IMG/VR virus record: IMGVR_UViG_3300031227_010601
Coordinates: 1 to 31,732 of that record
Length of the DNA: 31,732 bases
DNA from: a virus
Direction: 5' to 3' (one strand)
The notes below the pieces were generated by a model that saw only the letters and a program-made list of their open reading frames with translations, did not search any database and was not told where the DNA came from. Of this stretch, positions 1 through 30,024 are shown piece by piece. Both the position numbers and the translations under genes were made by a program. Numbering within the stretch: the first letter of the stretch is position 1; each line of letters begins with the position of its first letter.

Positions 1-75
1 TACCCCCTCAGGGACTCGAACCCTGGACTCCCTCATTAAAAGTGAGGTACTCTAAGCCAACTGAGTTAAGAGGGC
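1..75 (-). tRNA. tRNA-Lys (TTT)
   Basis: A complete cloverleaf reads on the minus strand. The acceptor stem pairs GCCCTCT with AGGGGGT, the D arm is normal, the anticodon stem is CCTCA/TGAGG around the loop CTTTTAA (anticodon TTT), and the T arm carries TTCGAGT. CCA is not encoded. The discriminator A falls on the first base of the window, so the gene is just complete. Confidence 0.9.
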
Positions 76-103
76 AATTGCCTTCACTAAGAAGGACTTT
101 TGG

Positions 104-179
104 TAGCGGGTACGAGATTTGAACTCGTGATCTGAAGCTTATGAAACTTCCGAGATAGGCCAGACTTCTCCAACCCGCA
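104..179 (-). tRNA. tRNA with CAT anticodon (Met, or Ile2 if lysidine-modified)
   Basis: The anticodon stem GAAGT/GCTTC encloses the loop TTCATAA (anticodon CAT). D arm GAGA/TCTC and a T arm with GTTCAAA are visible. Read with a 7-bp acceptor, position 1-72 is a T-T mismatch, but the anticodon stem lacks the three G-C pairs typical of initiators. Elongator Met or AUA-reading Ile2 are therefore both possible; sequence alone does not decide. Confidence 0.8.
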
Positions 180-258
180 ATATATTTTAAAAATTAAGAT
201 GTACTCCATTATACTACGTTGCCGAGGGGAGATGACCCCCCACCTTCTTAATTTTATG

Positions 259-333
259 TGGTGCCCGAGGATGGACTTGAACCACCGACTTCCACTAATT
301 TCTACGGGTACTCTTTCTCTGAGTTACTCGGAC
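259..333 (-). tRNA. tRNA-like gene with a defective anticodon arm
   Basis: The acceptor (GTCCGAG/CTCGGGC) with encoded ACCA, the D arm (ACTC/GAGT) and the T arm (GGTGG TTCAAGT CCATC) are good. The anticodon arm is not: CCCGT faces AGTGG with two mismatches, and the seven-base loop AGAAATT lacks the invariant T33. Read literally the anticodon would be AAA (Phe). It is either a decaying or non-decoding tRNA, or a tRNA with an unusual fold. Confidence 0.6.
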
Positions 334-339
334 ATTTAT

Positions 340-411
340 TGGTGCGCGAAGATGGAATCGAACCACCGTCCCTCGGTACTAGCAAGGATTCTAACATTGA
401 ACTATTCGCGC
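340..411 (-). tRNA. tRNA-Thr (AGT)
   Basis: Acceptor GCGCGAA/TTCGCGC is followed by encoded ACCA. The anticodon stem CCTTG/CGAGG encloses CTAGTAC, giving anticodon AGT. The T arm has TTCGATT. An A34 threonine tRNA is unusual in bacteria, where TGT and GGT are normal, so decoding of ACU would depend on the modification state of A34. Confidence 0.75.
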
Positions 412-415
412 TTTG

Positions 416-489
416 TGGATACGTCGGGACTTGAACCCAATCTTCCGCATTGCAAGTGCGGTGCTCTAGCCTATTTGAGCTAACGACCC
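416..489 (-). tRNA. tRNA-Ala (TGC), irregular acceptor stem
   Basis: A perfect anticodon stem CCGCA/TGCGG encloses CTTGCAA (TGC). D arm GCTC/GAGC and T loop TTCAAGT are normal. The acceptor GGGTCGT pairs with ACG-T-ATCC only if one T is bulged. A second, regular Ala (TGC) gene lies at 2102-2175, so this copy may be redundant and drifting. Confidence 0.75.
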
Positions 490-492
490 AAT

Positions 493-637
493 AAAGTTGA
501 GAAAGGTTGATGTGGGTATGTTTACTGTGCTAACATTACACTATACCGCTATTTTAATATCTGGTCGCGGTAGAAGGAATCTAACCTCCTCTAGTCGTTT
601 ATGATACGAAGTAACCCATTGTCGTTACTACAACTTT
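493..637 (-). ncRNA. Pseudoknotted RNA element, copy 1
   Basis: A closing stem pairs 493-499 (AAAGTTG) with 631-637 (CAACTTT). Just inside is a hairpin GAAGTAAC/GTTACTAC (plus-strand reading, one A-A mismatch) at 609-629. Its loop, CCC-A-TTGTC (615-623), can pair with GATGT-GGG at 509-516 through GGG:CCC plus wobble pairs. The middle contains a TACCGC/GCGGTA helix. It fills the gap between tRNA-Asn and tRNA-Ala. Minus-strand orientation is inferred from the flanking tRNAs and from copy 4. Confidence 0.6.
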
Positions 638-638
638 G

Positions 639-790
639 CTCTTGAGGTAGGATTCGAACCTACGACCTGCGGATTAGTGGATAAGGAGAGTTTCGCTCTC
701 TTTATTTTCCTAAAACCTTATCCGGGGATTGTTAACAACCACCTCTGGTTGTGATACAGTCCGATGCTCTACCAACTGAGCTACTCAAGA
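639..790 (-). tRNA. tRNA-Asn (GTT) interrupted by a 79-nt insert in the anticodon loop
   Basis: Outer parts are a normal tRNA: acceptor TCTTGAG/CTCAAGA, D arm GCTC/GAGC, T arm GTAGG TTCGAAT CCTAC. The anticodon arm reads CGGACTGT, then 79 nt (677-755), then TAATCCG. Removing the insert exactly restores the standard loop CTGTTAA with anticodon GTT, and the junction is unique. The insert contains a perfect 8-bp helix GGATAAGG/CCTTATCC, a GAGAG/CTCTC hairpin and an ACAACC/GGTTGT hairpin. It is far too small for a known self-splicing intron and has no terminal G. Whether a mature tRNA is produced is unknown. Confidence 0.75.
677..755 (-). other. 79-nt structured insert in the tRNA-Asn anticodon loop
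   Basis: The insert lies between U35 and U36 of the tRNA. On the minus strand it begins ATCACAACC and ends TTATCCAC. It folds into two helical domains and contains GTTAACAATCC, an echo of the normal Asn anticodon arm, so a partial duplication is one possible origin. No protein-coding capacity or group I core motif is visible. Confidence 0.65.
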
Positions 791-810
791 ATATGTTCAT
801 AAAATTTTAG

Positions 811-886
811 CGTGCCCGGAGGGACTCGAACCCCCATCGTGCGGCTTAACAGGCCGAAGTTTGATCCTATTTAGTACTACGGACAC
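811..886 (-). tRNA. tRNA-Asn (GTT), intact
   Basis: Acceptor GTGTCCG/CGGGCAC with discriminator G; anticodon loop CTGTTAA in a CGGC/GCCG stem; T arm GGGGG TTCGAGT CCCTC. The D arm pairs poorly. This uninterrupted gene lies right beside the interrupted tRNA-Asn and may make the latter dispensable. Confidence 0.82.
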
Positions 887-890
887 ATAA

Positions 891-1006
891 TAAATCTGAG
901 AAAAGTTAAAAGAGCATTTGGTTTGGTTCCCCGATGGCTTCCGCCTGGTGGAGAAATTGATAAAAAAATCAAAATACGAAGTAACTCTTTCATTACTACA
1001 GATTTA
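891..1006 (-). ncRNA. Pseudoknotted RNA element, copy 2
   Basis: The closing stem pairs 891-898 (TAAATCTG) with 999-1006 (CAGATTTA). The hairpin GAAGTAA/TTACTAC at 978-998 carries loop bases CTCTTT (985-990) that pair with AAAGAG (909-914), giving a pseudoknot. A TTGAT/ATCAA hairpin and a GGC-TTCC-GCC hairpin lie in between. It sits five bases upstream of tRNA-Asn in the direction of transcription. Its first closing strand overlaps the stop codon of the neighbouring homing endonuclease. Confidence 0.65.
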
Positions 1007-1693
1007 TGTTTTTATTTCTTTCTCTATTTCTTTTATATCTTTATCAAACCAAACTTGCAATTTATATCCAGCATTGCCAACAGCTTTCCATTTTAAGCTA
1101 TCATTTGGTCTCTCAAATCCCTTAGTTTCAATGTAGTAAAAACTTTCATTTTCAAAAACTTTGAAATCTAATAAGTATGTATGTTCTTTCTTATCTTTTC
1201 CAATATAACTAATTTTGTCATTAGTATATTCCCAATCTTTAATTTTCCCTTGTGCTTTCCATTTATCAAGAATAAAACAAGTTCTAAGTTCATAAGTTCC
1301 TTGGACTCTTATATCTTTATAATTAAGCCACTTAGCTGTTCCTCCGGCAACAAAATTATTACCATTAGCATACGATTTCTTATTTATTTCTGACCATTGT
1401 TCTTTAGATAATTTATCATGAACTGATTTCCATCCTCCTCTTAATTTACTAGCGCAGGATATAGAACAACATGTTGTATCTCTTTTAGCGTATGATACTT
1501 TAAATTCATTTCCACATTCAGGGCATATTTTTTTAACTTTATGTCTATTTAATGATAATTTTTTACTAACTTTTTCGTTTATTTCTTTCCTCTTAGCTTT
1601 TGTACTAAATCCTCTTGAACATTTAACAGAACAAAATCTTCCCGAACCATATTTTCCATCATGTTCGTTACCACAATTTTCACATTCTTTCAT
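1004..1693 (-). CDS. Homing endonuclease, zinc-finger plus PD-(D/E)XK-like nuclease
   Basis: This 229-aa protein has two Cys4-type zinc modules in the N-terminal half (CENC...CSVKC and CPEC...CSISC). Its C-terminal half has the layout of a PD-(D/E)XK/VSR-like nuclease: YELRTCFILDKW, then LLDFKVFENE and YYIETKG as candidate D...E-x-K active-site residues. The first 46 residues are nearly identical to the endonuclease at 3505-4317, while the catalytic halves differ, so the DNA-binding head has been shuffled. It is a free-standing mobile gene within the tRNA cluster. The stop codon lies in the closing stem of RNA element copy 2. A TATATAAAATAAA motif precedes the start by a few bases. Confidence 0.7.
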   Translation of the reverse strand: MKECENCGNEHDGKYGSGRFCSVKCSRGFSTKAKRKEINEKVSKKLSLNRHKVKKICPECGNEFKVSYAKRDTTCCSISCASKLRGGWKSVHDKLSKEQWSEINKKSYANGNNFVAGGTAKWLNYKDIRVQGTYELRTCFILDKWKAQGKIKDWEYTNDKISYIGKDKKEHTYLLDFKVFENESFYYIETKGFERPNDSLKWKAVGNAGYKLQVWFDKDIKEIEKEIKT

Positions 1694-1698
1694 ATGTG

Positions 1699-1716
1699 TT
1701 TATTTTATATATTCAC
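1699..1716 (-). promoter_or_regulatory. TATATAAAATAAA promoter-like motif of homing endonuclease gene
   Basis: On the minus strand GTGAATATATAAAATAAA lies only about six bases before the ATG. The same motif precedes every homing endonuclease gene here and resembles the T4 late promoter core TATAAATA. The closeness to the start implies a very short leader or a leaderless mRNA. Confidence 0.55.
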
Positions 1717-1757
1717 TTAGAAATTTGAACTTTAAACTTTCATAGTGAACTAAAATG

Positions 1758-1832
1758 CGGTATCGACGGGATTCGAACCCGCAAATCGCGATCCGTGACA
1801 GGGATGCACATGCGCCAATATGCTGCGACACC
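1758..1832 (-). tRNA. tRNA-Asp (GTC)
   Basis: Acceptor GGTGTCG/CGATACC, D arm GCAT/ATGT, anticodon stem ATCC/GGAT around CTGTCAC (GTC), T arm GCGGG TTCGAAT CCCGT. A second Asp gene lies at 2402-2473. Confidence 0.85.
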
Positions 1833-1838
1833 ATTTTG

Positions 1839-1921
1839 TCGGGAAGGTGGGATTCGAACCCACGTTTTCAACATACCTACCTACGGCTATACACTTTATC
1901 AGAGTGCCCCGGTATATCCCG
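1839..1921 (-). tRNA. Aberrant tRNA-like gene (possible Ile GAT)
   Basis: The T arm (GTGGG TTCGAAT CCCAC) and acceptor 3' strand (CTTCCCG) are clear, facing CGGGATA with two mismatches. The best anticodon arm, GCACT CTGATAA AGTGT, would read GAT (Ile). It starts only 14 bases from the 5' end, so there is no room for a D arm. A long, partly paired segment follows it, as in a class II variable arm. It is either a D-armless oddity or a rearranged, non-functional gene. Confidence 0.5.
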
Positions 1922-1931
1922 TTAATTTTTG

Positions 1932-2002
1932 TACCCCCGAATGGAATCGAACCATCGTCACCAGATTAAGAGTCTGGGGCATATCCCCTTTGCTACGAAG
2001 GC
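1932..2002 (-). tRNA. tRNA-Lys (CTT)
   Basis: Acceptor GCCTTCG/CGGGGGT is rich in G-T pairs. Anticodon stem CCAGA/TCTGG around CTCTTAA gives CTT. T loop TTCGATT. Together with two Lys (TTT) genes it covers both lysine codons. Confidence 0.87.
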
Positions 2003-2101
2003 ATGGTGAGATTTTTTGATCTAATTCTTTGGCGATCATGGAATTACTAAACCTCAATATAAACAAAATCTCTTAAACCTTCCATTTTATACTGAACTTC
2101 G

Positions 2102-2175
2102 TGGAGCTGAAGAGACTCGAACTCTCGACATCCTGAATGCAAATCAGGTGCTCTAGCCAACTGAGCTACAGCCCC
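2102..2175 (-). tRNA. tRNA-Ala (TGC)
   Basis: Acceptor GGGGCTG/CAGCTCC, D arm GCTC/GAGC, anticodon stem CCTGA/TCAGG around TTTGCAT (TGC), T arm GAGAG TTCGAGT CTCTT. A regular second copy of the Ala tRNA at 416-489. Confidence 0.9.
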
Positions 2176-2179
2176 AAAC

Positions 2180-2276
2180 ATTGTCTTCAACATACCCGGC
2201 CGAATACGCTTTCCCATAGTGCACCTAGAGAGATCCTCGCCTGCGTCCTCACTGGGCCGGCAAAAACCTTGACAAT
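2180..2276 (-). ncRNA. Compact structured RNA between tRNA-Trp and tRNA-Ala
   Basis: Two nested inverted repeats are visible: ATTGTC (2180-2185) with GACAAT (2271-2276), and CCGGCC (2196-2201) with GGCCGG (2255-2260), plus an inner CCC..AGTG/CACTGGG helix. It fills the whole spacer between two tRNA genes and is far more GC-rich than other spacers. It resembles no RNA family I can name. The strand is inferred from the flanking tRNAs. Confidence 0.5.
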
Positions 2277-2286
2277 TTTTTATTAG

Positions 2287-2357
2287 CAGGCCATGAAGGA
2301 TTCGAACCCTCGACGTTGGTTTTGGAGACCAAAATGTTACCACTACACCAATGACCT
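2287..2357 (-). tRNA. tRNA-Trp (CCA)
   Basis: Acceptor AGGTCAT/ATGGCCT is fully paired. Anticodon stem TTGGT/ACCAA surrounds CTCCAAA (CCA). T arm GAGGG TTCGAAT CCTTC. Discriminator G. Confidence 0.9.
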
Positions 2358-2401
2358 ATAGAAGCAAATCAGAATACTCTAAAGTAATCCTCAATGCCCA
2401 G

Positions 2402-2473
2402 CGGTCCATGTGGGATTCGAACCCCTCCTTCGCGCAGACAACGCGTTGTACTACTCTTTATACTACACGGACC
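2402..2473 (-). tRNA. tRNA-Asp (GTC), second copy, weak T stem
   Basis: Acceptor GGTCCGT/ATGGACC is perfect and the anticodon stem CGCG/CGCG surrounds TTGTCTG (GTC). The T stem has only three good pairs and the D arm is irregular, so this copy may be less functional than 1758-1832. It follows RNA element copy 3 directly. Confidence 0.72.
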
Positions 2474-2476
2474 AAA

Positions 2477-2590
2477 TAAACTGAGAAAGTTCGGAAGAGA
2501 TTAACAGACGGTTTCGACACCGTGACTTTTGTGTTGTAAACAAATGCTGGACACCCAGCTCGAAGTAGCTCATTCCATTACTACAGTTTA
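2477..2590 (-). ncRNA. Pseudoknotted RNA element, copy 3
   Basis: Closing stem TAAACTG (2477-2483) with CAGTTTA (2584-2590). The hairpin GAAGTAG/TTACTAC at 2562-2583 has a loop with CTC-A-TTCC (2569-2576) that pairs with GGAA-GAG (2493-2499), leaving one A bulged. The middle has three clear hairpins: ACGGT/ACCGT, TTTGT/ACAAA and GCTGG/CCAGC. It lies three bases upstream of tRNA-Asp in transcription order. Confidence 0.68.
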
Positions 2591-2591
2591 G

Positions 2592-2652
2592 TTAAGATAG
2601 AAGGTTCGGGCCCTTCCAAGTGATGCATCACCATGTTCCATATTTATCTTAA
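2592..2652. other. Stem-loop overlapping the end of the GIY-YIG gene
   Basis: TTAAGATA (2592-2599) pairs perfectly with TATCTTAA (2645-2652) and encloses a GAAGG/CCTTC hairpin and the palindrome GTGATGCATCAC. The outer stem overlaps the stop codon of the endonuclease gene. It has no clear T run, so it may be an RNA-processing or 3'-end structure rather than a terminator. Confidence 0.4.
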
Positions 2653-3264
2653 TTTTCGACCTAATCTCCATCCTTCTGGAATTAAGTCATTTTTGTGTAT
2701 TTTTTTACTTTCTTTATCATTTGTTATCCAACTAGTTCCAAATTGAGAATTTTTAATTCCTGTTCTATCAGCATTTCTCATTTTTTCTTTAGTTTCTTTT
2801 GAATGTTTCTTATTTGTGAATCTAGAAGAATTCATTTTACCTTCTTGCCATAATTTTTTATATCGAATTCTCTGTTCTTCTATTTTTTTTTCTCTCCAAT
2901 CTTCATATAATAGACTGTGCCATAAAAGTTCATTTCTTTTCTTAGCTCCTTTTGTACTTTGTTCTTTAGTAAATCCTCCTCCACCACCTGGTTGAAGATT
3001 CATGCAATCTTTTTTTGCTAATTCATTTAAATTTACAATTTCAGATTCTCTATTTTTTAATTCTTTACGATTCTTACAATATTCTAATATTTCTCTAATA
3101 TGGTTTTCTCTTCCATACTTATTTATAGAATATCTTAATCGTTTTCCACTTCCTAAATAATCATCTTCTATATTATGAGTAGAATGCATCCCGTAATAAT
3201 ATTTTTTATTTACTTTACAAGTTGTTTTGTAAATAAAGTGGTACTTTTTTTGTTTCCTTGGCAT
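2644..3264 (-). CDS. GIY-YIG homing endonuclease
   Basis: A 206-aa protein starting with a GIY-YIG domain: FIYKTTCKVNKKYYYGMHST matches the two tyrosine strands (first ~30 residues), followed by YLGSGKRLRYSINKYG and the conserved Glu region (ESEIVNLNE). A basic middle and C-terminal NUMOD-like DNA-binding repeats follow (KHSKETKEKMRNADRTGIKNSQFG). It is a free-standing mobile gene between tRNA-Gly and RNA element copy 3, with the shared TATATAAAATAAA motif upstream. The target is presumably nearby tRNA or RNA-element DNA, which is inference. Confidence 0.8.
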   Translation of the reverse strand: MPRKQKKYHFIYKTTCKVNKKYYYGMHSTHNIEDDYLGSGKRLRYSINKYGRENHIREILEYCKNRKELKNRESEIVNLNELAKKDCMNLQPGGGGGFTKEQSTKGAKKRNELLWHSLLYEDWREKKIEEQRIRYKKLWQEGKMNSSRFTNKKHSKETKEKMRNADRTGIKNSQFGTSWITNDKESKKIHKNDLIPEGWRLGRKLR

Positions 3265-3271
3265 AATATAC

Positions 3272-3289
3272 TTTATTTTATATATTCAC
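3272..3289 (-). promoter_or_regulatory. TATATAAAATAAA promoter-like motif
   Basis: GTGAATATATAAAATAAA on the minus strand, seven bases before the GIY-YIG gene's ATG; same motif as upstream of the other homing genes. Confidence 0.55.
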
Positions 3290-3313
3290 ACTCAAGGAAC
3301 AAAAATGACCATG

Positions 3314-3390
3314 TGGTGCGGGTAAAAGGATTCGAACCCTCACCTCGAGATTGGAAATCTCATATGCTAGCCGTTAAACACCACACCCGC
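3314..3390 (-). tRNA. tRNA-Gly (TCC)
   Basis: Acceptor GCGGGTG/TACCCGC with encoded ACCA, anticodon stem TGAGA/TCTCG around TTTCCAA (TCC), T arm GAGGG TTCGAAT CCTTT. Confidence 0.9.
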
Positions 3391-3504
3391 ATTGTCTACA
3401 CCGCATGCCATTCAGTATAGATCTTGATTTTTGCCTTTACTAGCATGATGTAAAGAGAATCCCGAAAGAAATCATAAACTTTCTGTTGATAGTTTTCGTA
3501 AAAA

Positions 3505-4317
3505 CTAACAAAAATGTGTTTCTTTATTATTTAATATTAACTTGAAATTATATCCTTTTTCTTTATATGCTTTTACTCTATCTTTCATATTTTGTAAATC
3601 TAATGTATAACTAGATTTAACTTCTGACAAGGTATTAGTTTCTGGCAAATAAAAATCCACTATTGCTATTCTTTGTTTATTTTCTATCGTATCAAAATAT
3701 TTTATTCTTTTTGATTCTACATCATATTTAATTTGGTATGAATCTAAAATTTTTGCATAATTAAATTCATAAGAACTTCTTAAATAAACTTTTTTATTTT
3801 CCCAAGTATTATACCATCCGCGTTTACAATTCCCATAAGAAAAATTATCTTGTGGAGTTTGCCTTCCTAAATCAATGCTATTAATATTTGCTTCTGAATT
3901 ATTTTTTAATGATATCCCATTATTTTGAAAAAAGAAATATAATGTATTAAGTTGGATTTTATATTTTTCTTTTATCATTAAAGAAGTTTGATTATTAATA
4001 AAATATTCTTTTTTTAAAAAATCTAAAGCTTTTTTATTTGCAACTTTTAAATTTTCATCTAATATATTCAATTTTTTATATAAACTTCTTCTTTGAATTA
4101 ATGGATAGCAATCATCACAAAACTTTCTTCTTTTATTTAAAATTTTACCACATGAACTACATTTTGTGATTTTGTTCTTATTTAATGTTTTGCTTACCTT
4201 TTCATTTATTTCTTTTCTTTTAGCTTTAGTGCTAAATCCTTTAGAACATTTAACTGAACAAAATCTACCACTTCCATAAGAACCATTATGTTCATTACCA
4301 CAATTTTCACATTTCAT
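3505..4317 (-). CDS. Homing endonuclease, zinc-finger plus PD-(D/E)XK-like nuclease
   Basis: A 270-aa relative of the 1004-1693 protein. The N-terminal zinc module (CENC...CSVKC) and basic linker of about 46 residues are nearly identical, and a second CSSC...CDDC zinc ribbon follows. The C-terminal third has a VSR/PD-(D/E)XK layout: RSSYEFNYAKILD, then IAIVDFYLPE and SEVKSSY, giving candidate E, D and E-x-K residues. The middle includes a helix-turn-helix-like stretch. The gene ends in TAG, showing amber is used as a stop here. An AGTTTT/AAAACT hairpin follows the stop. The upstream motif TATATAAAATAAA is present. Confidence 0.68.
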   Translation of the reverse strand: MKCENCGNEHNGSYGSGRFCSVKCSKGFSTKAKRKEINEKVSKTLNKNKITKCSSCGKILNKRRKFCDDCYPLIQRRSLYKKLNILDENLKVANKKALDFLKKEYFINNQTSLMIKEKYKIQLNTLYFFFQNNGISLKNNSEANINSIDLGRQTPQDNFSYGNCKRGWYNTWENKKVYLRSSYEFNYAKILDSYQIKYDVESKRIKYFDTIENKQRIAIVDFYLPETNTLSEVKSSYTLDLQNMKDRVKAYKEKGYNFKLILNNKETHFC

Positions 4318-4322
4318 AAGTG

Positions 4323-4340
4323 TTTATTTTATATATTCAC
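4323..4340 (-). promoter_or_regulatory. TATATAAAATAAA promoter-like motif
   Basis: GTGAATATATAAAATAAA on the minus strand, five bases before the endonuclease ATG. It is the same 18-mer as upstream of the genes at 1004-1693 and 2644-3264. Confidence 0.55.
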
Positions 4341-4386
4341 CTATGAATTTGAACTAATGCAAATAGATTAAAAATTTTAATTTCTG

Positions 4387-4471
4387 TACCCCCAGTGAGA
4401 CTCGAACTCACGATCTATCGATTAAAAGTCGATGGCTTTAAGGTTTCCCAATCCAACTAAGCTATGGGGGC
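4387..4471 (-). tRNA. tRNA-Lys (TTT) with enlarged D loop
   Basis: Acceptor GCCCCCA/TGGGGGT, anticodon stem ATCGA/TCGAT around CTTTTAA (TTT), T arm GTGAG TTCGAGT CTCAC. D-stem GCTT/AAGC encloses about 20 nt instead of 8-11, making the gene 85 nt long. It is a second Lys (TTT) gene beside the normal one at 1-75. Confidence 0.8.
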
Positions 4472-4497
4472 AAAAATTACAATACGTCAAAGATCGA

Positions 4498-4522
4498 TGA
4501 TTTTTTACTGAAATCTAACATT
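4498..4522. repeat. 25-bp direct repeat, copy A
   Basis: TGATTTTTTACTGAAATCTA and the five following bases recur exactly at 4570-4594. The two copies flank a truncated tRNA, suggesting a recombination event. Confidence 0.85.
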
Positions 4523-12085: not shown

Positions 12086-12282
12086 AATGTAATTTTATAA
12101 CAAGATTTCATAATTTTCATTTTTCCTTTTTCGTCATCAACAAGCAAAACTACCCTAGCATTTTTAAAGGGATCCAATGCTCGTGCTATATCAGTGTATT
12201 GAATTTCTTTGAATTTCTTCTCTCTTCCTTCCATAGTTAAATCTCCTAGACCTAACGTTAAAATTCCGTTTGCTTCTCTCAT
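12082..12282 (-). CDS. Hypothetical protein (66 aa)
   Basis: A 66-aa soluble protein, starting MREANGILTLGLGDLTMEGRE, between the TonB-dependent receptor (TAATG overlap) and the macro-domain gene (ATGA overlap). Its tight coupling shows it is translated with them. No known domain. Confidence 0.65.
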   Translation of the reverse strand: MREANGILTLGLGDLTMEGREKKFKEIQYTDIARALDPFKNARVVLLVDDEKGKMKIMKSCYKITL

Positions 12283-14240
12283 TAAAACGAATATTTAAGA
12301 GTTAAAAACCCATTGGTCCCAGCCATTACAAAATAAAGAGGTTCCCCATCATATCCCATCACAGCATTTCCAAGAATTAACTCGTTGGTTAAATTATTTA
12401 AGCTTCCTATTAATTCAAATTTTTTCCATTTGAATCCAGCATAGGTATTTAGTGTAGTTGCAGCAGGAAGAGTATGTTCATTTGAGAAGTCAATATAACT
12501 ATCTCCTCTATATTTAACATTCAAACCTATATTAAACCAATCGCTTAAATTATATTTTATGTCAGTACTAACAATAACATTTGGAGTCATAACAGGTGAA
12601 AATATTTCTCCATCTTCTTTAATTTGATTATATGAAACATTAGCAGCTAATACATACTCGAAACCATTTTGCCATTTATATCTTCCATCAAGTTCTATTC
12701 CACTCCTAAATGATTGATCTACGTTTTGGTGAAGTAAAATTCCATTAGGGCCATATTGTCCATTCAATACAATTTCATTCTTAAAACTCATATAATACGT
12801 ATTCACATTTACTTTAAGAGATTGATCATTGTACCTAAATCCTAATTCATTATCTAGAGCTTGTTCCGGAACAGTTGGATTATACATTTCTGGAATAAAA
12901 TCATCGTTCCCCATAAATAGGTCTGTTCTAGTAGGTTCTCTGTGACTCATTCCAATTCCATAGTAAATATTAGAATACGCTCCGGTCCTTATAGTGACAC
13001 CACCTGACCAATTAATAAAACTATATTTCTGTGTAGGGAAAGGTGTCTGACCATCATAAGAGAACATACTGTAACGGTACTGTACATCCCCATAAATTGA
13101 AAACCTTCCAGATGTAATTTCACCTTTAACATAAGGTGCTACTTCATTTCTATATCCAGTATTTTTATATGCTTCTTCTCCATTATATGAACCAACATGC
13201 TCTCTATAATAAGTATATGCACTAACTCCATAATTTGTATTCAACCAATTTCCAACTTTTAGATTGTAATTTAAATTTGTTCCGAATTGATTAGACCAAA
13301 GTTCAATTCTATTCATTAGATCCCCCCAATTTAAAGAAGGATCAAAATGAGCTATATCTGTATCATACCATCCATGAATTCCGGTATGATAAACTGTAGC
13401 GTGCAATCCAAATCGTTCCCAATGTAATTGGCTATGAATTTGTGAGAAATCATCAGTTTCATTCGGCTTATTAGAATTATATCTCGGATTAGAATTAATT
13501 GAATCTAGTGGTTCTCCTAACCAACCCATTCCATTTCTTTGTTTTCCAACAAAACCATAGAATTTAAAACTCTTTAATTTGGCACCATAAAATGTTGAGT
13601 ATGAATTATTAAACACATTATTTTTATATCCATTGGTATGATTAGATGAAGTGGTTATAAAAAAATTAGGGTACATTATACCACCTGATGAACCTAGCGA
13701 TCCATATGAACCAACACTTCCTTGGGCAAACAATCCAGGTTTATCTGGAAATTTTAATGAATTGAAGTTCATACTTCCACCATAAGAAGATACACCAGAT
13801 TTTGTCATTCCAGCTCCTCTAATAATTTGAATGTTATTGACCGCGCTAAGGAAATTCGGATAATTGTTATAATAAATTCCTTGATCTTCTGGTTCATTCA
13901 TTGGAACACCATTAAATGTAGAATTAATTCGTGTCTGATCAATCCCTCTCATTCTATAATAAATATAGCCATTTCCTAATCCATTATCGGAATGAGTAAC
14001 AATTGATGGTGTTTGACTAAGAAGTATTGCTGGCTCAGAAAATGGTTGCCTGGCTTGAATTACTTCATGATTTAGATTTGTAAAGGAAAATGGTGTTTCT
14101 TTTACAGCGGTGTAGGAACCAGTTACAGTGACTTCATTCACATTAATTGTGTCCTCTGTGATGTTCCCTTTTTCATAAAATGTTTGTGCGAAAACTACAC
14201 TTCCTATAAATAATAGGATTACAATAAATAAATTTTTCAT
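12282..14240 (-). CDS. TonB-dependent outer-membrane receptor
   Basis: This 652-aa protein has a cleavable signal peptide (first ~18 residues, VVFA|Q), a TonB-box-like NVNEVTVTG at ~33-41, and a plug domain to about residue 165 (MRGIDQTRINSTFNGVPMNE, then VNNIQIIRGAGM). A barrel of alternating aromatic strands follows, ending in the C-terminal Phe typical of BAM substrates (FLTLKYSF). It would sit in the host outer membrane and import a ligand with TonB energy. Finding one in a phage is unusual. It overlaps the next gene by one base within an operon next to NAD genes. The ligand is unknown; an NAD precursor is a speculation from context. Confidence 0.88.
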   Translation of the reverse strand: MKNLFIVILLFIGSVVFAQTFYEKGNITEDTINVNEVTVTGSYTAVKETPFSFTNLNHEVIQARQPFSEPAILLSQTPSIVTHSDNGLGNGYIYYRMRGIDQTRINSTFNGVPMNEPEDQGIYYNNYPNFLSAVNNIQIIRGAGMTKSGVSSYGGSMNFNSLKFPDKPGLFAQGSVGSYGSLGSSGGIMYPNFFITTSSNHTNGYKNNVFNNSYSTFYGAKLKSFKFYGFVGKQRNGMGWLGEPLDSINSNPRYNSNKPNETDDFSQIHSQLHWERFGLHATVYHTGIHGWYDTDIAHFDPSLNWGDLMNRIELWSNQFGTNLNYNLKVGNWLNTNYGVSAYTYYREHVGSYNGEEAYKNTGYRNEVAPYVKGEITSGRFSIYGDVQYRYSMFSYDGQTPFPTQKYSFINWSGGVTIRTGAYSNIYYGIGMSHREPTRTDLFMGNDDFIPEMYNPTVPEQALDNELGFRYNDQSLKVNVNTYYMSFKNEIVLNGQYGPNGILLHQNVDQSFRSGIELDGRYKWQNGFEYVLAANVSYNQIKEDGEIFSPVMTPNVIVSTDIKYNLSDWFNIGLNVKYRGDSYIDFSNEHTLPAATTLNTYAGFKWKKFELIGSLNNLTNELILGNAVMGYDGEPLYFVMAGTNGFLTLKYSF

Positions 14241-15936: not shown

Positions 15937-16202
15937 TATTCGAAAAATGAATTAAGTTGAACTTGCATATAATCATTAAAATCTTCAATTGTAATTTTGT
16001 CAAATTTATCACCCCAATTTTCTCTCATTGATTCTATATGATTAGCATCCAATGTGTTAATTATTCCTTTAGCGACATGTAAAACTCTACCTTTATCTTG
16101 TCTAAAATAATGTTTTTTACTATCAATAAAGCAGGCACCAATATCATCGGATTGCTTTGGTTCTTTCCATTCTTTTTCAGGCCAAATTCTTGCTATTTTC
16201 AT
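15936..16202 (-). CDS. Hypothetical protein (88 aa)
   Basis: An 88-aa soluble protein (MKIARIWPEKEWKEPKQSDD...). The central IDSKKHYFRQDKG and VAKGIINTLDANH stretches suggest mixed alpha/beta structure. It overlaps both neighbours by a single base (TAATG-type junctions) in the pncB-pth2 operon. Function unknown. Confidence 0.65.
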   Translation of the reverse strand: MKIARIWPEKEWKEPKQSDDIGACFIDSKKHYFRQDKGRVLHVAKGIINTLDANHIESMRENWGDKFDKITIEDFNDYMQVQLNSFFE

Positions 16203-16636
16203 TATAATAATTTTAAATTTCCGGTTATTCTATCAATTTCATCTGGGTACCATGGACCAATGGCAACCGCAGTAATAGTTATCTTTCCTCCAAATTCAGT
16301 TAATCCTTTATCTTCAATTAAAGAACAAGGAATACCTTTCGCTGATGCATTTTGATATGCAGTAATTAATTCAGTTAAAGTACCTTGAACCACAATTTTT
16401 ACAAAAGAATTATTGATCCATTGATATATTGGTTGATCTTCATGCAATATGATTTCTTTATGAAGAGTTTTGTAAATTCCATGTTTGTGTTCGTCCCATT
16501 CTCTTTTTCCATATTCCCCAAAAAATGAATCAAGCAAAACTGCTAATGATGCATGAGCACCTTGAGCAATCATTTTACCTTTCCTCATCTTAGGTTTAGT
16601 GTCGGTTCTGATTATTATGACTTGTTTTGGTTCCAT
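16202..16636 (-). CDS. Peptidyl-tRNA hydrolase, Pth2 family
   Basis: A 144-aa protein with Pth2 landmarks: KMRKGKMIAQGAHASLAVLL (catalytic Lys/His region), a central VKIVVQ strand, GIPCSLIEDKGLTEF and the terminal ITITAVAIGPWYPDEIDRITG. Pth2 releases tRNA from peptidyl-tRNA that has dropped off ribosomes. This is the archaeal/eukaryotic family, found in several large phages. It overlaps pncB by one base (TAATG). A second, different Pth2 gene lies at 28936-29268. Confidence 0.82.
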   Translation of the reverse strand: MEPKQVIIIRTDTKPKMRKGKMIAQGAHASLAVLLDSFFGEYGKREWDEHKHGIYKTLHKEIILHEDQPIYQWINNSFVKIVVQGTLTELITAYQNASAKGIPCSLIEDKGLTEFGGKITITAVAIGPWYPDEIDRITGNLKLL

Positions 16637-20750: not shown

Positions 20751-21449
20751 TTACATTAAGTTGATATACCATTTATTAGGTACTTGTTTAATATTTTTCT
20801 TTGATTGATAATAAATAAAATGTTTATTCACATTATATTCAGGATGATTATTTATGAATTCGGTTGCAGAATTAACTATAAATTCTTTATTATCTGGTGT
20901 TTGAATAAAATATTTTTTAGCGTTTGGATTTTTATTGCCCATTTTACTTTCGCTTAATTTTTTTATGTGCTCCTTTGTTTTCTTTATTCCAAATATTGGA
21001 GAATCTGCCCCCTTTTTCCCAAACATTGGATTATATTTACCAGTATTATTTGAATTCATTCTCATTTTTTCTAAAGTTTCTTTAGAATATATCCCTTTCT
21101 TTCCTTTATTCCAAGGTGTCTTTCCTTTTCTTTTTTCACTTAATATTCTTTTAGTTTCTTCAGAATGTATACCACCCCATTCGTTCATTCCCCCAGTAGG
21201 ACTTATATTATATCCTTTTGGTCGTAAAGTATTAAATTTCTTAATATAAAATTCTTCTAAATCAAAAGCTTCTTTTCTTGTTTTTGTTATTTCCAGTATT
21301 TTTCTTTTGAAATTTTCTTTACCGTGTAAATTAATAGATTCAGATAAATATAAACCACTTCCTAAATAAGAATCATTTAAATTTCCTCTATGAGATCCCA
21401 CATATTGTTTACTATTTAATTTATTTGTTGTTAAATATACAAAATTCAT
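20751..21449 (-). CDS. GIY-YIG homing endonuclease
   Basis: A 232-aa protein. The GIY-YIG domain begins FVYLTTNKLNSKQYVGSH and continues with YLGSGLYLSESINLHGKENF and the catalytic-Glu helix (EAFDLEEFYIKKFN), about 90 residues. Four NUMOD3-like repeats follow (HSEETKRILSEKRKGKTPWN, YSKETLEKMR, GKYNPMFGKKGADSPIFG, GNKNPNAKK). It is free-standing between pncA and small genes, with a TATATAAAATAAA motif abutting its ATG. Confidence 0.83.
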   Translation of the reverse strand: MNFVYLTTNKLNSKQYVGSHRGNLNDSYLGSGLYLSESINLHGKENFKRKILEITKTRKEAFDLEEFYIKKFNTLRPKGYNISPTGGMNEWGGIHSEETKRILSEKRKGKTPWNKGKKGIYSKETLEKMRMNSNNTGKYNPMFGKKGADSPIFGIKKTKEHIKKLSESKMGNKNPNAKKYFIQTPDNKEFIVNSATEFINNHPEYNVNKHFIYYQSKKNIKQVPNKWYINLM

Positions 21450-21466
21450 TTTATTTTATATATTCA
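21450..21466 (-). promoter_or_regulatory. TATATAAAATAAA promoter-like motif abutting an ATG
   Basis: Minus strand ATGAATATATAAAATAAA runs straight into the start codon. If this is a -10 element, transcription must begin at or inside the start region, i.e. a leaderless mRNA. Confidence 0.55.
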
Positions 21467-21479
21467 TAAGTGCATTTGA

Positions 21480-22157
21480 TTATTGTGTTAAAAACGTTAA
21501 AGGTAATTGCCAAGAATCTATCATTTTTACTCCATGCAAATGAAGTTCTTTTATAGTTTTAGTTATATCTGGATTAATTGGTTTAGTTGCATTCATAATA
21601 AAGAATGTTTCAAACCCTTCATTATTTGCATCTATTGCTGTATCTTTGCAGCAATAATCGGTTGCCAATCCACAAATAAATACAGTTTCTATATTTTTCT
21701 CTCTTAAAAAGAATCCAAGTCCTGTTCCATCAAATCCAGAATAAGGATGTTTATCTTTTTCCAATCCTTTTTTAAAGATATAAAATTCAGCTTCATCTTT
21801 AATTAAACTGAGATCTATTCCTTCATGGATCATAGCTCCATAAGATTCGGCAATACAATGATCTGGCCACAACGTATCTTCTTTTCCATTTACTTTATAC
21901 GTATCGAATGGCTTCTTAGTTTTATATGAAGAGGCAAATGCCTTCATACCTGTAGGATGCCAGTCCTTTGTAAAAATAATTAAATCAAATTGGGGTAACA
22001 ATTCATTTATTACAGGAACGATTTGATCACCGTTCGGTACTGCCAATGCTCCCCCTTGTCCATTCTTATAATCCTCTTCAGTCGCCGGCATGAAATCATA
22101 CTGGGCATCGATGATAAGTAAAGCCTTCCTACTTCTTGTGTATTTTTTTTCTTTCAT
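21480..22157 (-). CDS. pncA: Nicotinamidase
   Basis: A 225-aa cysteine hydrolase of the isochorismatase fold. Catalytic residues are visible: Asp17 in LLIIDAQYDF, Lys in FTKDWHP and Cys in GLATDYCCKDTA; the Asp/His metal site is FTKDWHP plus DHCI. It deamidates nicotinamide to nicotinate, the first step of the route completed by pncB, nadD and nadE. I start at MKEKKYTRSRK (ATG after an AAATT leader); earlier ATGs overlap the divergent homing gene. Its natural promoter may now lie beyond that inserted gene (22871-22900). Confidence 0.9.
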   Translation of the reverse strand: MKEKKYTRSRKALLIIDAQYDFMPATEEDYKNGQGGALAVPNGDQIVPVINELLPQFDLIIFTKDWHPTGMKAFASSYKTKKPFDTYKVNGKEDTLWPDHCIAESYGAMIHEGIDLSLIKDEAEFYIFKKGLEKDKHPYSGFDGTGLGFFLREKNIETVFICGLATDYCCKDTAIDANNEGFETFFIMNATKPINPDITKTIKELHLHGVKMIDSWQLPLTFLTQ

Positions 22158-22180
22158 AATTTTAATATATATAATAAAAA

Positions 22181-22858
22181 GTGTACATTTATAAAACAAC
22201 AAATTTAATAAACGGTACTATTTACATTGGCCAGCATACTGGAGATGTAAATGATCAATATTTGGGATCTGGACTTTTAATAAAAAGAGCTATTAAAAAA
22301 TATGGAAAGGAAAATTTCCAAAAAACGATCATCAAAGAATGCAATAATATTGATGATCTAAATAATAACGAAATACTTTTTATTAAAAAATTTAATTCTA
22401 TTTATCCAGGTGGATATAATTTAAGAGAAGGAGGAAATAACTCATTGTTATCTAATTCAACTAAAAGAAAAATTAGTCTTTCTCGAAAAGGAAAATGTAT
22501 GGGTGAAAACAATCCAAATTGGAACGCTAAATCATTCAAAAAAGATACTAAAAATAAAATTAGTAAATCTATAAAAGAACGATATCAAAATCATCCTACA
22601 TATCGTACCACAATATCCAAAACATCAAAGAACCGAAAACATTCTAAAGAAACCAAAAATTCTATCAGTCAAAAAAATTCTGGTAAAAATAATGGAAGAT
22701 ATATCCATTTTTCTAAAAAAGATATAAATTCAATTATCAAAGATTATTTAAATAATATTTCAATGAATAAAATAGGAATTAAATTTAAAACTTCTCCCCA
22801 AACCGTTAAACGAATATTAATAGAATCAAATATTTCAATAATTAAAAGAACTAATTAA
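22181..22858 (+). CDS. GIY-YIG homing endonuclease on the opposite strand
   Basis: The only plus-strand gene in the window: 225 aa from a GTG start. The GIY-YIG domain reads YIYKTTNLINGTIYIGQH, then YLGSGLLIKRAIKKYGKENF and the Glu helix (NNNEILFIKKFN). NUMOD-like repeats (STKRKISLSRKGK, HSKETKNSI) and a C-terminal helix-turn-helix (MNKIGIKFKTSPQTVKRIL) follow. It starts 23 bp from the divergent pncA start, with TATATATAATAAA in between. It has separated pncA from an upstream GTTATATTA promoter. Confidence 0.83.
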   Translation: MYIYKTTNLINGTIYIGQHTGDVNDQYLGSGLLIKRAIKKYGKENFQKTIIKECNNIDDLNNNEILFIKKFNSIYPGGYNLREGGNNSLLSNSTKRKISLSRKGKCMGENNPNWNAKSFKKDTKNKISKSIKERYQNHPTYRTTISKTSKNRKHSKETKNSISQKNSGKNNGRYIHFSKKDINSIIKDYLNNISMNKIGIKFKTSPQTVKRILIESNISIIKRTN

Positions 22859-28138: not shown

Positions 28139-28155
28139 AACCTTTATTTTATTAG

Positions 28156-28228
28156 TCGTCCCTGAGAGACTCGAACTCTCGGCCAACGGGGTTAGAAGCC
28201 GCTGCTCTGCCAACTGAGCTAAAGGACG
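28156..28228 (-). tRNA. tRNA-Arg (TCT), outside the main cluster
   Basis: Acceptor CGTCCTT/AGGGACG, D arm GCTC/GAGC, anticodon loop CTTCTAA (TCT) in a stem with one mismatch, T arm GAGAG TTCGAGT CTCTC. It lies between two protein genes and reads AGA/AGG codons, which are common in AT-rich genes. Confidence 0.85.
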
Positions 28229-28256: not shown

Positions 28257-28574
28257 TTATTCTACTACTTCTTCAACAAGTTCAGGAGCATACTCTTTAG
28301 TTATTTCTTCTACTCTTGATTTAAAATGTTCTTCATCCCAAGTAGTTTCAAATTTAAGACTATCAATGTCGGAAATTTTTCTTCCTCTTAATTCTGCATA
28401 AGCAGCATACATTGCTCTTAATTCATCTCTATTTTGATAATGTTTCATTGCTGCTTCAGAAGGACTGATTTCTCTTGGTCCTACCATTTTTACAGTTTTT
28501 CTTTGATTCTTTAAAAATTTCTGATAAGTTGCTGCAACTTTAATTCTTTCTACTAATTCTTTTCTTGTTTTCAT
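28257..28574 (-). CDS. Hypothetical helical protein (105 aa)
   Basis: A 105-aa, charged, all-helical protein (MKTRKELVERIKVAATYQKFLKNQ..., ISPSEAAMKHYQNRDELRAM). No domain is recognised. It lies directly downstream of the palindromic tandem repeats, which may be its control region. Confidence 0.65.
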   Translation of the reverse strand: MKTRKELVERIKVAATYQKFLKNQRKTVKMVGPREISPSEAAMKHYQNRDELRAMYAAYAELRGRKISDIDSLKFETTWDEEHFKSRVEEITKEYAPELVEEVVE

Positions 28575-28738: not shown

Positions 28739-28939
28739 TTATTTGATTTTAGTTAATAATTCTTTAGCTCTCATGTTTAAATTATCTGGATGATCATAAT
28801 TTTCATTACAATCATATTCCATGTAGTAATTATCATATGAATTCCCATACTCATTTCGAATACTATAATCTTCTGATAATTCTCTTAATAATTCAATTAA
28901 TGCCTTGTGATCCTTTTCGTTTAATTCTAAATTTTTCAT
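28739..28939 (-). CDS. Hypothetical protein (66 aa)
   Basis: A 66-aa protein with a Tyr/Asn-rich middle (YGNSYDNYYMEYDCNENYD) between two helices. ATGA overlap with the end of pth2 shows coupling. Function unknown. Confidence 0.62.
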   Translation of the reverse strand: MKNLELNEKDHKALIELLRELSEDYSIRNEYGNSYDNYYMEYDCNENYDHPDNLNMRAKELLTKIK

Positions 28940-29268
28940 ACTTGTATTTCTTTTAACGCTAATGGTAATTTGCTTGTTAACTTTCTTGAATTTTCTCCGG
29001 GTTCGATCGCAATTGCTGTGATTTGATTCCCGATATCAGGTTCTCGAAATACGGTATGTTTAATTCCTCTATATCGGATTTTCTCCAGATATAACAATAG
29101 CTGTTCTTCATTTTCAACTGACAAAATGATGAGATAGTTGGATTGAGTATTCCACTTCTTAGAAATGTCTGGGTATTGGTGTTGAAAGTCTACCGCCGCA
29201 TGTGCAGATTGTAACATTTGAACACCTGGCTTTAAATCTCTTCGTGTAATTACATACAGTTTTTTAAT
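28936..29268 (-). CDS. Peptidyl-tRNA hydrolase Pth2, apparent AUU start behind a two-codon minigene
   Basis: The first in-frame ATG (29217) would lose the conserved N-terminus. Reading upstream gives IKKLYVITRRDLKPGVQ joined to MLQSAHAAVDF, a normal Pth2 start (~110 aa). That frame begins with ATT (29266-29268). The codons just before it are ATG-ATA-TAG (29269-29277), in the same frame. The rest has Pth2 features (YLIILSVENEEQLLLYLEKI, ITAIAIEPGENSR). The diverged copy at 29953-30024 has the same ATG-NNN-TAG-ATT head. Translation could use AUU, re-initiate, or read through amber; TAG serves as a normal stop elsewhere here. Confidence 0.78.
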   Translation of the reverse strand: MKKLYVITRRDLKPGVQMLQSAHAAVDFQHQYPDISKKWNTQSNYLIILSVENEEQLLLYLEKIRYRGIKHTVFREPDIGNQITAIAIEPGENSRKLTSKLPLALKEIQV

Positions 29269-29277
29269 CTATATCAT
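29269..29277 (-). promoter_or_regulatory. Two-codon minigene ATG-ATA-TAG in front of pth2
   Basis: ATG ATA TAG lies in frame with, and directly abutting, the ATT that begins pth2. The lambda bar minigene (AUG AUA stop) is known to generate Met-Ile-tRNA drop-off and to be toxic when peptidyl-tRNA hydrolase is limiting. Placed ahead of a Pth gene it could sense Pth activity. The regulatory role is inference. Confidence 0.5.
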
Positions 29278-29280
29278 ATC

Positions 29281-29922
29281 TTAATTTTTTAATTTACATT
29301 TATTTGTGTGTCTACTATAATTAGAAGGAGATATGAATTTATGACAATACATACATTCCTTTTTATTTACTTTTTTAAGACTTTCACTTATTTTTTTCTT
29401 AGTTGATTCTGATCGTGTAACTCCAAAAAAATATCCCTTTGTTCCGTACATTGGATTTTTATCTCCAATTTTTTTAGAACTCATTTTTTCCTTCGAATTG
29501 ATGGTGTGTTTTCTACCTTTACTCTTTTTACCTATTTTCTGTTTAGTTTCTTCAGAATGTTTTTTTCCATACATTGGATTACCTGCACCTATATATTTTT
29601 TCTTTAATACACCACTTACTAATAATCTAGCATATTCATAATCTCTTCCAGATTTAATATATTCATTATTGTTATTAGAATGAACCATTCTAGCAAACGC
29701 TAATTTCATTAAATCAGCATCATAAATGAACATTAACAATTTGTGACAAATATAATGTTCTTTAGCTGTTAATAAAACTAAATTTTCATTAGAATTATCT
29801 CCTTTAAGAGATTTTGGTAAAATATGGTGATTTTCATAGTAAATAGCTGAACCCTTTATTCTATTTTCAGATTTAGCTTTTTCTATGATTGAATGATAAA
29901 TTTTTTTATGATCCATTGACAT
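29281..29922 (-). CDS. HNH homing endonuclease
   Basis: A 213-aa protein. Residues ~25-70 form an HNH nuclease (YENHHILPKSLKGDNSNENLVLL followed by TAKEHYICH). NUMOD3 repeats follow (GAGNPMYGKKHSEETKQKI, GDKNPMYGTKG, VTRSESTKKKISESLKK) and a C-terminal CMYC...H...C zinc motif. It sits between a broken pth2 5' end and the intact pth2, and the frame is open from the pth2 fragment into it. A TATATAAATAAA motif lies just before its start. Confidence 0.85.
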   Translation of the reverse strand: MSMDHKKIYHSIIEKAKSENRIKGSAIYYENHHILPKSLKGDNSNENLVLLTAKEHYICHKLLMFIYDADLMKLAFARMVHSNNNNEYIKSGRDYEYARLLVSGVLKKKYIGAGNPMYGKKHSEETKQKIGKKSKGRKHTINSKEKMSSKKIGDKNPMYGTKGYFFGVTRSESTKKKISESLKKVNKKECMYCHKFISPSNYSRHTNKCKLKN

Positions 29923-29928
29923 GAATAA

Positions 29929-29944
29929 TTTATTTATATATTCA
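29929..29944 (-). promoter_or_regulatory. TATATAAATAAA promoter-like motif
   Basis: Minus strand GAATATATAAATAAAT, closest of all copies to the T4 late core TATAAATA, a few bases before the HNH gene. Confidence 0.5.
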
Positions 29945-29952
29945 TGATTTTT

Positions 29953-30024
29953 ATGAACAGCTTGGTAACCAGGGTGTAGATCTCTCCTGGTAATGATAAT
30001 TAATTTGTGATTAATCTAAGTCAT
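29953..30024 (-). pseudogene. Truncated pth2 5' end (diverged copy)
   Basis: ATG-ACT-TAG-ATT is followed in frame by INHKLIIITRRDLHPGYQAV, clearly the N-terminus of a Pth2 protein, about half identical to the intact gene's start. It then breaks off and runs in frame into the HNH homing gene. The homing gene therefore interrupts, or arrived with, a pth2 copy. The same minigene-like head as in the intact gene is preserved. Confidence 0.7.

Follow-up and report, generated by a model that had tools for sequence, protein, structure and literature searches.

The pth2 locus

The window, that is, the whole stretch of viral DNA that was analysed (31,732 nucleotides, IMG/VR record IMGVR_UViG_3300031227_010601), carries on its minus strand a divergent relative of the peptidyl-tRNA hydrolase 2 gene (pth2), in which an in-frame amber codon follows the ATG after a single codon (29277-29266, ATG-ATA-TAG-ATT). 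A second head of the same type is found upstream (30024-30013, ATG-ACT-TAG-ATT), and a tRNA gene with the anticodon CTA is located downstream. The relevant features, all of them on the minus strand, are the following:

16202..16636, minus: ordinary pth2 with a plain ATG, an ungated comparison gene in the same phage (PF01981, 3.4e-24)
~28155-28228, minus: suppressor tRNA, anticodon CTA (ARAGORN; Rfam tRNA, 59.1 bits; also in loci L002 and L003)
28257..28574, minus: small ORF between pth2 and the tRNA (ORF list)
28739..28939, minus: small ORF between pth2 and the tRNA, no confident family
28936..29268, minus: pth2-like body, 110 codons plus a TGA stop; predicted divergent peptidyl-tRNA hydrolase 2 fold (profile, AlphaFold2, Foldseek)
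29269..29271, minus: in-frame amber TAG, codon 3, putative gate of pth2; the next base is A (purine context)
29275..29277, minus: pth2 start codon, ATG (in 70 of 115 representatives a homologous ATG precedes the stop by 1-9 codons)
29281..29943, minus: HNH/NUMOD3 homing endonuclease that shares its frame with the stub; its first internal ATG is at 29922 (phrog_655, 3.7e-42; NUMOD3, 1.3e-17)
29944..30015, minus: pth2-like stub of about 24 codons, 5' of the endonuclease (translation; also in L003; extent judged by eye)
30013..30024, minus: second head, ATG-ACT-TAG-ATT, which opens the pth2 5' stub

Both heads, with the stop as the third in-frame codon, had been pointed out in an earlier, sequence-only reading of this DNA, and they are indeed present. 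The bare pattern ATGNNNTAGATT has three matches in the window where 0.97 are expected, and three or more were obtained in 6 of 100 shuffles, a number within chance; it is the conservation of the heads in relatives, not the pattern count in the window, that sets them beyond chance. Among the 59 ORFs of the window, only these two heads fit the gate rule given below.

The upstream head had been assigned to a diverged and truncated, decayed copy of the gene. It really opens a 5' stub of pth2, whose Pth2-like sequence INHKLIIITRRDLHPGYQAVHKNH continues in frame into the HNH/NUMOD3 endonuclease. An identical order (stub, endonuclease, pth2) is found in L003, whose Pth2 is 86% identical to that of the window, so that neither head of the window counts as evidence independent of the other. 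Because the stub bears the same amber head, in frame, the endonuclease may also be suppressor-gated. In both alleles the stub and the endonuclease share one frame, and the difference in length between the alleles preserves it.

Other parts of the window hold features of a different kind, judged from their translations. Several ORFs between 9341 and 24141 resemble proteins of NAD synthesis and salvage (NMN adenylyltransferase-, nicotinamide phosphoribosyltransferase-, nicotinamidase- and NAD synthetase-like), and an ORF of 652 aa at 12282-14240 resembles a TonB-dependent outer-membrane receptor, in a viral contig. Positions 1-4500 and 20751-22858 contain a tRNA array, recognised from tRNA matches, interspersed with homing endonuclease-like ORFs.

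The Pth2-like protein

The window protein matches the Pth2 profile PF01981 with an E value of 8.4e-11 and 42.5 bits, above the gathering cut-off of 23, while the relatives from L057, L012 and L094 score below this cut-off. Its AlphaFold2 model has a pLDDT of 95.3 and was matched by Foldseek to the solved Pth2 structures 2zv3, 1q7s, 3erj and 1xty with probability 1.00 and, for most top matches, TM scores of 0.74-0.80. Judging from profile and model, this protein is a divergent Pth2, a putative hydrolase that shares fold and family profile with the archaeal/eukaryotic-type peptidyl-tRNA hydrolase 2. It differs from ordinary PF01981 members in its altered active-site region: the ordinary KGK motif (e.g., KMRKGKMIAQGAHA in the other Pth2 of the window) is not found in the divergent family, in which lysine occupies position 13 in 3 of 34 sequences and position 17 in 2 of 34, whereas R9, Q20, H23, E76 and P77 are present in 34 of 34, the last two forming an invariant EP. 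Since the KGK lysines are not kept, hydrolase activity is not assured.

Conservation of the early stop

The family survey started from 13 IMG/VR loci and five huge-phage records, most of them with TAG at codon 2-5 and many with adjoining CTA tRNAs, to which loci from three alignment-based scans, an L124 scan, two genome contigs and named phages were added, giving 152 analysed loci. Five loci with weak or doubtful anchors were dropped, both from the 136 of the ORF comparison and from the 152 of the final count; L024, L025 (plain ATG start) and L026 (GTG) have no suppressor in the locus, and the loci L091 and L092 each contain a CTA tRNA. The remaining 147 loci gave 115 representatives with a core identity below 90%, the duplicate loci L201-L212, L226 and L227 being kept out of the counts. 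For Mycobacterium phages, the heads were taken from Alice, Myrna and Phabba, of 193 matched records, together with the IMG/VR copies L106, L107, L110 and L111. A scan of the genomes of 84,980 species returned two loci, both in metagenome-assembled contigs and each with a suppressor tRNA beside the gene. The family is found in phages infecting Bacteroidota, Proteobacteria and Actinobacteria.

A gene was counted as gated if the last stop upstream of the Pth2 core is preceded, at a distance of 1-9 codons, by an in-frame ATG, and if this stop either lies no more than 20 codons from the core or belongs to the 181-codon fusion type. An early in-frame stop of this kind is present in 70 of the 115 representatives (65 TAG, 3 TAA and 2 TGA); the other 45, which count against gating, include a few GTG-TAG heads (e.g., that of Myrna), which are missed because the rule needs an ATG. 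Among ORFs of at least 90 codons, 42 of 83 pth2 ORFs have an ATG 1-6 codons ahead of the TAG that bounds their frame, versus 30 of 1,486 other ORFs of the same loci (p 9e-40). The conserved early stop is very probably functional. In a tree of 105 rows, restricted to those with at least 75 residues ahead of the first stop (L057 and L058, among others, were thereby excluded), the well-supported branches force at least nine switches between genes with a TAG head and the others; many forks have weak support.

It is the early in-frame stop that is conserved across the family, and not the two-codon spacing or the ATT. ATG-NNN-TAG is the commonest spacing of the TAG heads (30 of 65), the rest having 1, 3, 4 or 7-9 codons, and the gating TAG is followed by ATT in 19 of 65 and elsewhere by 19 other codons, mostly no start codons. 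In four Pth2 fusions (L067, L085, XacN1 and RAS14) the amber is the third or fifth codon, and the Pth2 core follows about 181 codons later. The proposal that the head is conserved and hence functional holds for the stop, and the comparison of pth2 5' ends that it called for did reveal a common early stop, but ATG-NNN-TAG-ATT as a fixed form did not emerge; with an ATG 1-9 codons before the stop, a two-codon minigene of the lambda bar type does not describe the family, and neither does a start at ATT with autoregulation of the infC AUU type. In 5 of the 65 heads, ATG or GTG directly follows the TAG, where an ordinary start would suffice, an observation that counts against gating.

Suppressor tRNAs linked to pth2

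Suppressor tRNA genes are present in 83 of the 115 loci. All 91 of these genes are on the same strand as pth2, at a median distance of 668 nt, and in 69 of the 83 loci the distance does not exceed 1.5 kb. The stop of the head agrees with the anticodon: the 65 TAG-headed representatives have CTA (45), CTA plus TTA (1), TTA only (1) or no suppressor (18), whereas the three TAA heads have TTA (L057, L058 and L086) and the two TGA heads have TCA (L124 and L089), with these non-amber heads and their tRNAs 0.3 to 5.4 kb apart. None is crossed, no TAA or TGA head being paired with CTA (Fisher p 2.3e-6, a value that, like those given below for base context, overstates independence because the representatives are related). 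Of the 52 gated representatives whose locus holds a suppressor, 51 show a match of stop and anticodon; the exception is a TAG head with TTA, an anticodon that reads UAG by wobble. The 18 TAG heads without a suppressor gene in the fetched locus count against gating, and when 16 records from which such loci come were scanned for the pattern, a single candidate tRNA turned up. Among the 45 representatives that are not gated, 28 have a CTA tRNA, 3 a TTA tRNA and 14 none.

The base context points in the same direction. The gating TAG is followed by A in 47 heads and by G in 18, a purine in 65 of 65. In the same loci, by comparison, a purine comes after 139 of 269 TAG codons at ordinary ORF ends (p 1e-16) and after 263 of 403 at 5' bounds (p 2e-11); among the TAA and TGA heads, 4 of 5 have one. 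Purines after UAG raise suppression efficiency. A chance origin of the early stop was considered and ruled out by the ORF comparison, the agreement of stop with anticodon and the purines after the stop.

A single charging identity of the suppressors was not found: among 102 of them the discriminator base is A in 56, G in 23, T in 18 and C in 5, some of the ends being hard to place.

The CTA tRNA of the window shares the strand of pth2 and is located 707 nt downstream of it, and its CUA anticodon reads UAG, the codon present in both window heads; the ARAGORN label tRNA-Pyl is due solely to the CTA anticodon. The anticodon stem has a C.C mismatch adjoining the loop, and the four other pairs hold in the CTA register (by eye). 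A one-base slide of the loop would give UCU (Arg), with poorer stem pairing. In the minimum free energy fold the acceptor, D and T stems are retained, whereas the standard anticodon stem does not form. Within the set the nearest non-suppressor tRNA is Arg(TCT). Both the mismatch closing the anticodon loop and the Arg(TCT) kinship count against the gating reading.

The position of the tRNA in ungated relatives deserves separate mention. In L064, L069, L012, L074, L225 and others, a CTA tRNA is found about 300 nt after the start of the Pth2 core, immediately 3' of the gene. In L019 and L123, a TTA tRNA lies about 400 nt after the ungated core start, and a TAA is found about 15 codons upstream of the core, with no ATG within the 9 codons before it.

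Pairing in named phages

Several phages with names and annotation have the same arrangement. Mycobacterium phage Alice has an ATG-TAG-GTG head, with the annotated start at the GTG; about 250 nt downstream of its pth2 is a gene annotated as 'tRNA-suppressor (cta)'. Myrna and Phabba have GTG-TAG-GTG heads with CTA tRNAs. ME3 has an ATG-ACT-TAG-ATT head and an annotated CTA tRNA, and TAG heads together with CTA tRNAs are found in Serratia phage BF, XbC2, GAP32, pT24 and Arash. In Salmonella phage Arash (L139, 6307-6381) the tRNA is annotated as tRNA-Phe, and ARAGORN reads its anticodon as CTA. A gate would account for annotated starts that fall inside pth2 (ME3, pT24) or just past the stop (Alice), as well as for the unannotated pth2 gene of Serratia phage BF.

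XacN1 has an in-frame ATG-AAG-TAG-ACC-ATT-AAA-GCG upstream of ORF364, and its two CTA tRNAs, near position 36 kb of the record, are separated from this ORF by some 208 kb. Fusions of the XacN1 type, with TAG at codon 3 or 5, are also found in Stenotrophomonas phage RAS14 and the IMG/VR loci L067 and L085, whose loci have no suppressor. RaK2, Hallingskeid, ZPAH1 and phiAS5 are ungated and have no suppressor in the locus.

Controls and use of TAG across genomes

Ordinary phage pth2 genes were used as a control, and neither a head stop (0 of 11 loci) nor a suppressor tRNA (0 of 11) was found; 6 of the 11 loci are devoid of tRNAs, and L220-L222 appear to be a single gene. The ungated relative in Klebsiella phage RaK2 goes with no suppressor among the 8 tRNAs of the first 200 kb. 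A six-frame profile search of phage Summit, which has a suppressor tRNA, yielded no family member, and this counts against the pairing; in Atu_ph07, whose suppressor has the anticodon UCA, Pth2 gave two weak matches, neither of them with an internal stop.

TAG is used as a terminator by 26 of 273 ORFs in ME3, 41 of 165 in Alice, 55 of 443 in XacN1 and 10 of 245 in GAP32 (ORFs picked mechanically, some of them not genes), and it ends 4 of the 52 listed genes of the window. Since TAG ends many other ORFs in these four phages, their genomes are not recoded wholesale, and the signature of TAG-recoded phages (code 15), absence of TAG as terminator together with its frequent occurrence inside genes, was found neither in the window nor in the four genomes. 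Avoidance of TAG was set aside as a sign of suppression, given that TAG is also scarce as a terminator in RaK2 (17 of 253), with no suppressor in the stretch examined.

A proposed suppressor-gated circuit and its alternatives

The arrangement suggests a module of two parts, a phage tRNA able to read a stop codon (here CUA, which reads UAG) and a divergent pth2 gene with the same stop a few codons past its ATG. Without the suppressor, the release factor would end translation after a few residues, and Pth2 would be made solely by suppressor-dependent readthrough at the early stop. On the comparative evidence, synthesis of Pth2 is in all likelihood gated in this way by the phage suppressor tRNA. 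Predicted readthrough by a linked suppressor is favoured because it explains the conservation of the stop, its agreement with the anticodon, the common strand and proximity of the two genes, the purine context and the displaced stop of the fusions.

A second, more tentative proposal, to which we give slightly less than even credence, is that the circuit is a feedback governor: stronger suppression would produce more Pth2, which would remove peptidyl- (or aminoacyl-) tRNA created by suppression, or the charged suppressor itself, so that Pth2 would limit suppression or clear its debris, with stop and anticodon (amber, ochre or opal) evolving together. Ungated sister genes also adjoin suppressor tRNAs (31 of 45), which extends the tie between Pth2 and suppressor beyond the gate and suggests an action of Pth2 on suppression itself or on what suppression produces. 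The stop at codon 2-5 could itself be a natural site of peptidyl-tRNA drop-off, feeding the same circuit.

A serious rival, if a somewhat improbable one, is a pure lock or timer without feedback, in which Pth2 would appear after synthesis and charging of the tRNA, and the gene on its own would never yield it. All the evidence for the gate is equally evidence for such a lock, and the frequent location of the two genes within 1.5 kb of each other suits it; a lock alone does not explain why ungated relatives also stand beside suppressors (28 CTA and 3 TTA of 45).

Quite unlikely is the sensor proposed in the sequence-only reading, in which AUG-NNN-UAG would trap tRNA as dipeptidyl-tRNA and the level of Pth would decide between re-initiation at the ATT and readthrough. 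The lambda bar and infC precedents, the Pth2-like product and the prevalence of ATG-NNN-TAG (30 of 65) speak in its favour, but the spacing varies from 1 to 9 codons, ATT follows TAG in only 19 of 65 heads, the stops of the fusions are 181 codons upstream of the Pth2 core, a purine follows the stop in 65 of 65, and the type of stop tracks the anticodon of the linked suppressor, a tRNA that a lambda-bar-like trap does not need. Readthrough into pth2, one of the two modes of control offered in that reading, gains support from the family.

Even less probable is a genome-wide reassignment of TAG (code 15), in which the early TAG would be one recoded codon among many. Suppressor tRNAs are a recoding tool of some gut phages, according to one report (PMC10607447), and the set includes a Lak phage with a TTA tRNA (L031) and a locus with a second internal TAG (L016). 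Recoding is contradicted for ME3, Alice, XacN1 and GAP32, where TAG ends many ordinary ORFs, as it does 4 of 52 window genes; moreover, only two heads among the 59 window ORFs fit the gate rule, and TAA and TGA gates exist too. Finally, an artefact of the homing endonuclease, whose insertion would have copied the heads with an accidental TAG, as the presence of stub, endonuclease and pth2 in both the window and L003 might suggest, is contradicted by the early stop in dozens of relatives from phages of several bacterial phyla (not each checked for an endonuclease) and is exceedingly improbable.

Significance and comparison with known systems

Suppressor tRNAs of phages that are not recoded had no known target: the authors of the XacN1 genome reported suppressor tRNAs and could not identify their target genes (PMC5852040), and those of Summit described the purpose of the suppressor as unknown (PMC9022506). 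The pairing would give the XacN1 suppressors a concrete target, ORF364. A pairing of suppressor tRNA and Pth2 in phages was not found described in a literature search covering open-access titles and the openings of abstracts, with subscription papers mostly outside it. If correct, the gating reading describes a natural tRNA-gated gene, testable in phages grown on laboratory hosts such as Mycobacterium smegmatis mc2 155. The governor, if real, would be a natural lock-and-key control of genetic-code suppression common to phages of several bacterial phyla, and a handle on how phages stop suppression from harming themselves.

The lambda bar minigene consists of AUG-AUA-stop, and the window head likewise starts AUG-AUA-UAG; in the family, by contrast, neither the two-codon form nor the second codon is conserved, and a suppressor tRNA is linked to the gene. 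Release factor 2 (prfB) is autoregulated at an in-frame UGA by frameshifting. In both cases an early in-frame stop would tie the production of a translation factor to the decoding step which that factor may influence, although in the phages this would be achieved through readthrough by a dedicated tRNA, and the feedback is inferred. The pyrrolysine system relies on a CUA tRNA and in-frame UAG codons in methyltransferase genes, and it shares with the phage module a dedicated CUA tRNA paired with particular genes that contain an in-frame UAG; the phage stop, on the other hand, precedes the folded domain, and the phage suppressors, whose discriminator bases vary, belong to many types. Phages with code 15 (crAss-like and other gut phages) also encode a suppressor tRNA that reads UAG inside genes, whereas here one gene is affected in the genomes examined, its stop lies within the first codons and TAG is a normal stop elsewhere. 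An engineered counterpart is a synthetic suppressor-tRNA feed-forward loop built in E. coli, in which expression is reported to depend on a suppressor tRNA (PMC7969014), as is predicted here for natural phages.
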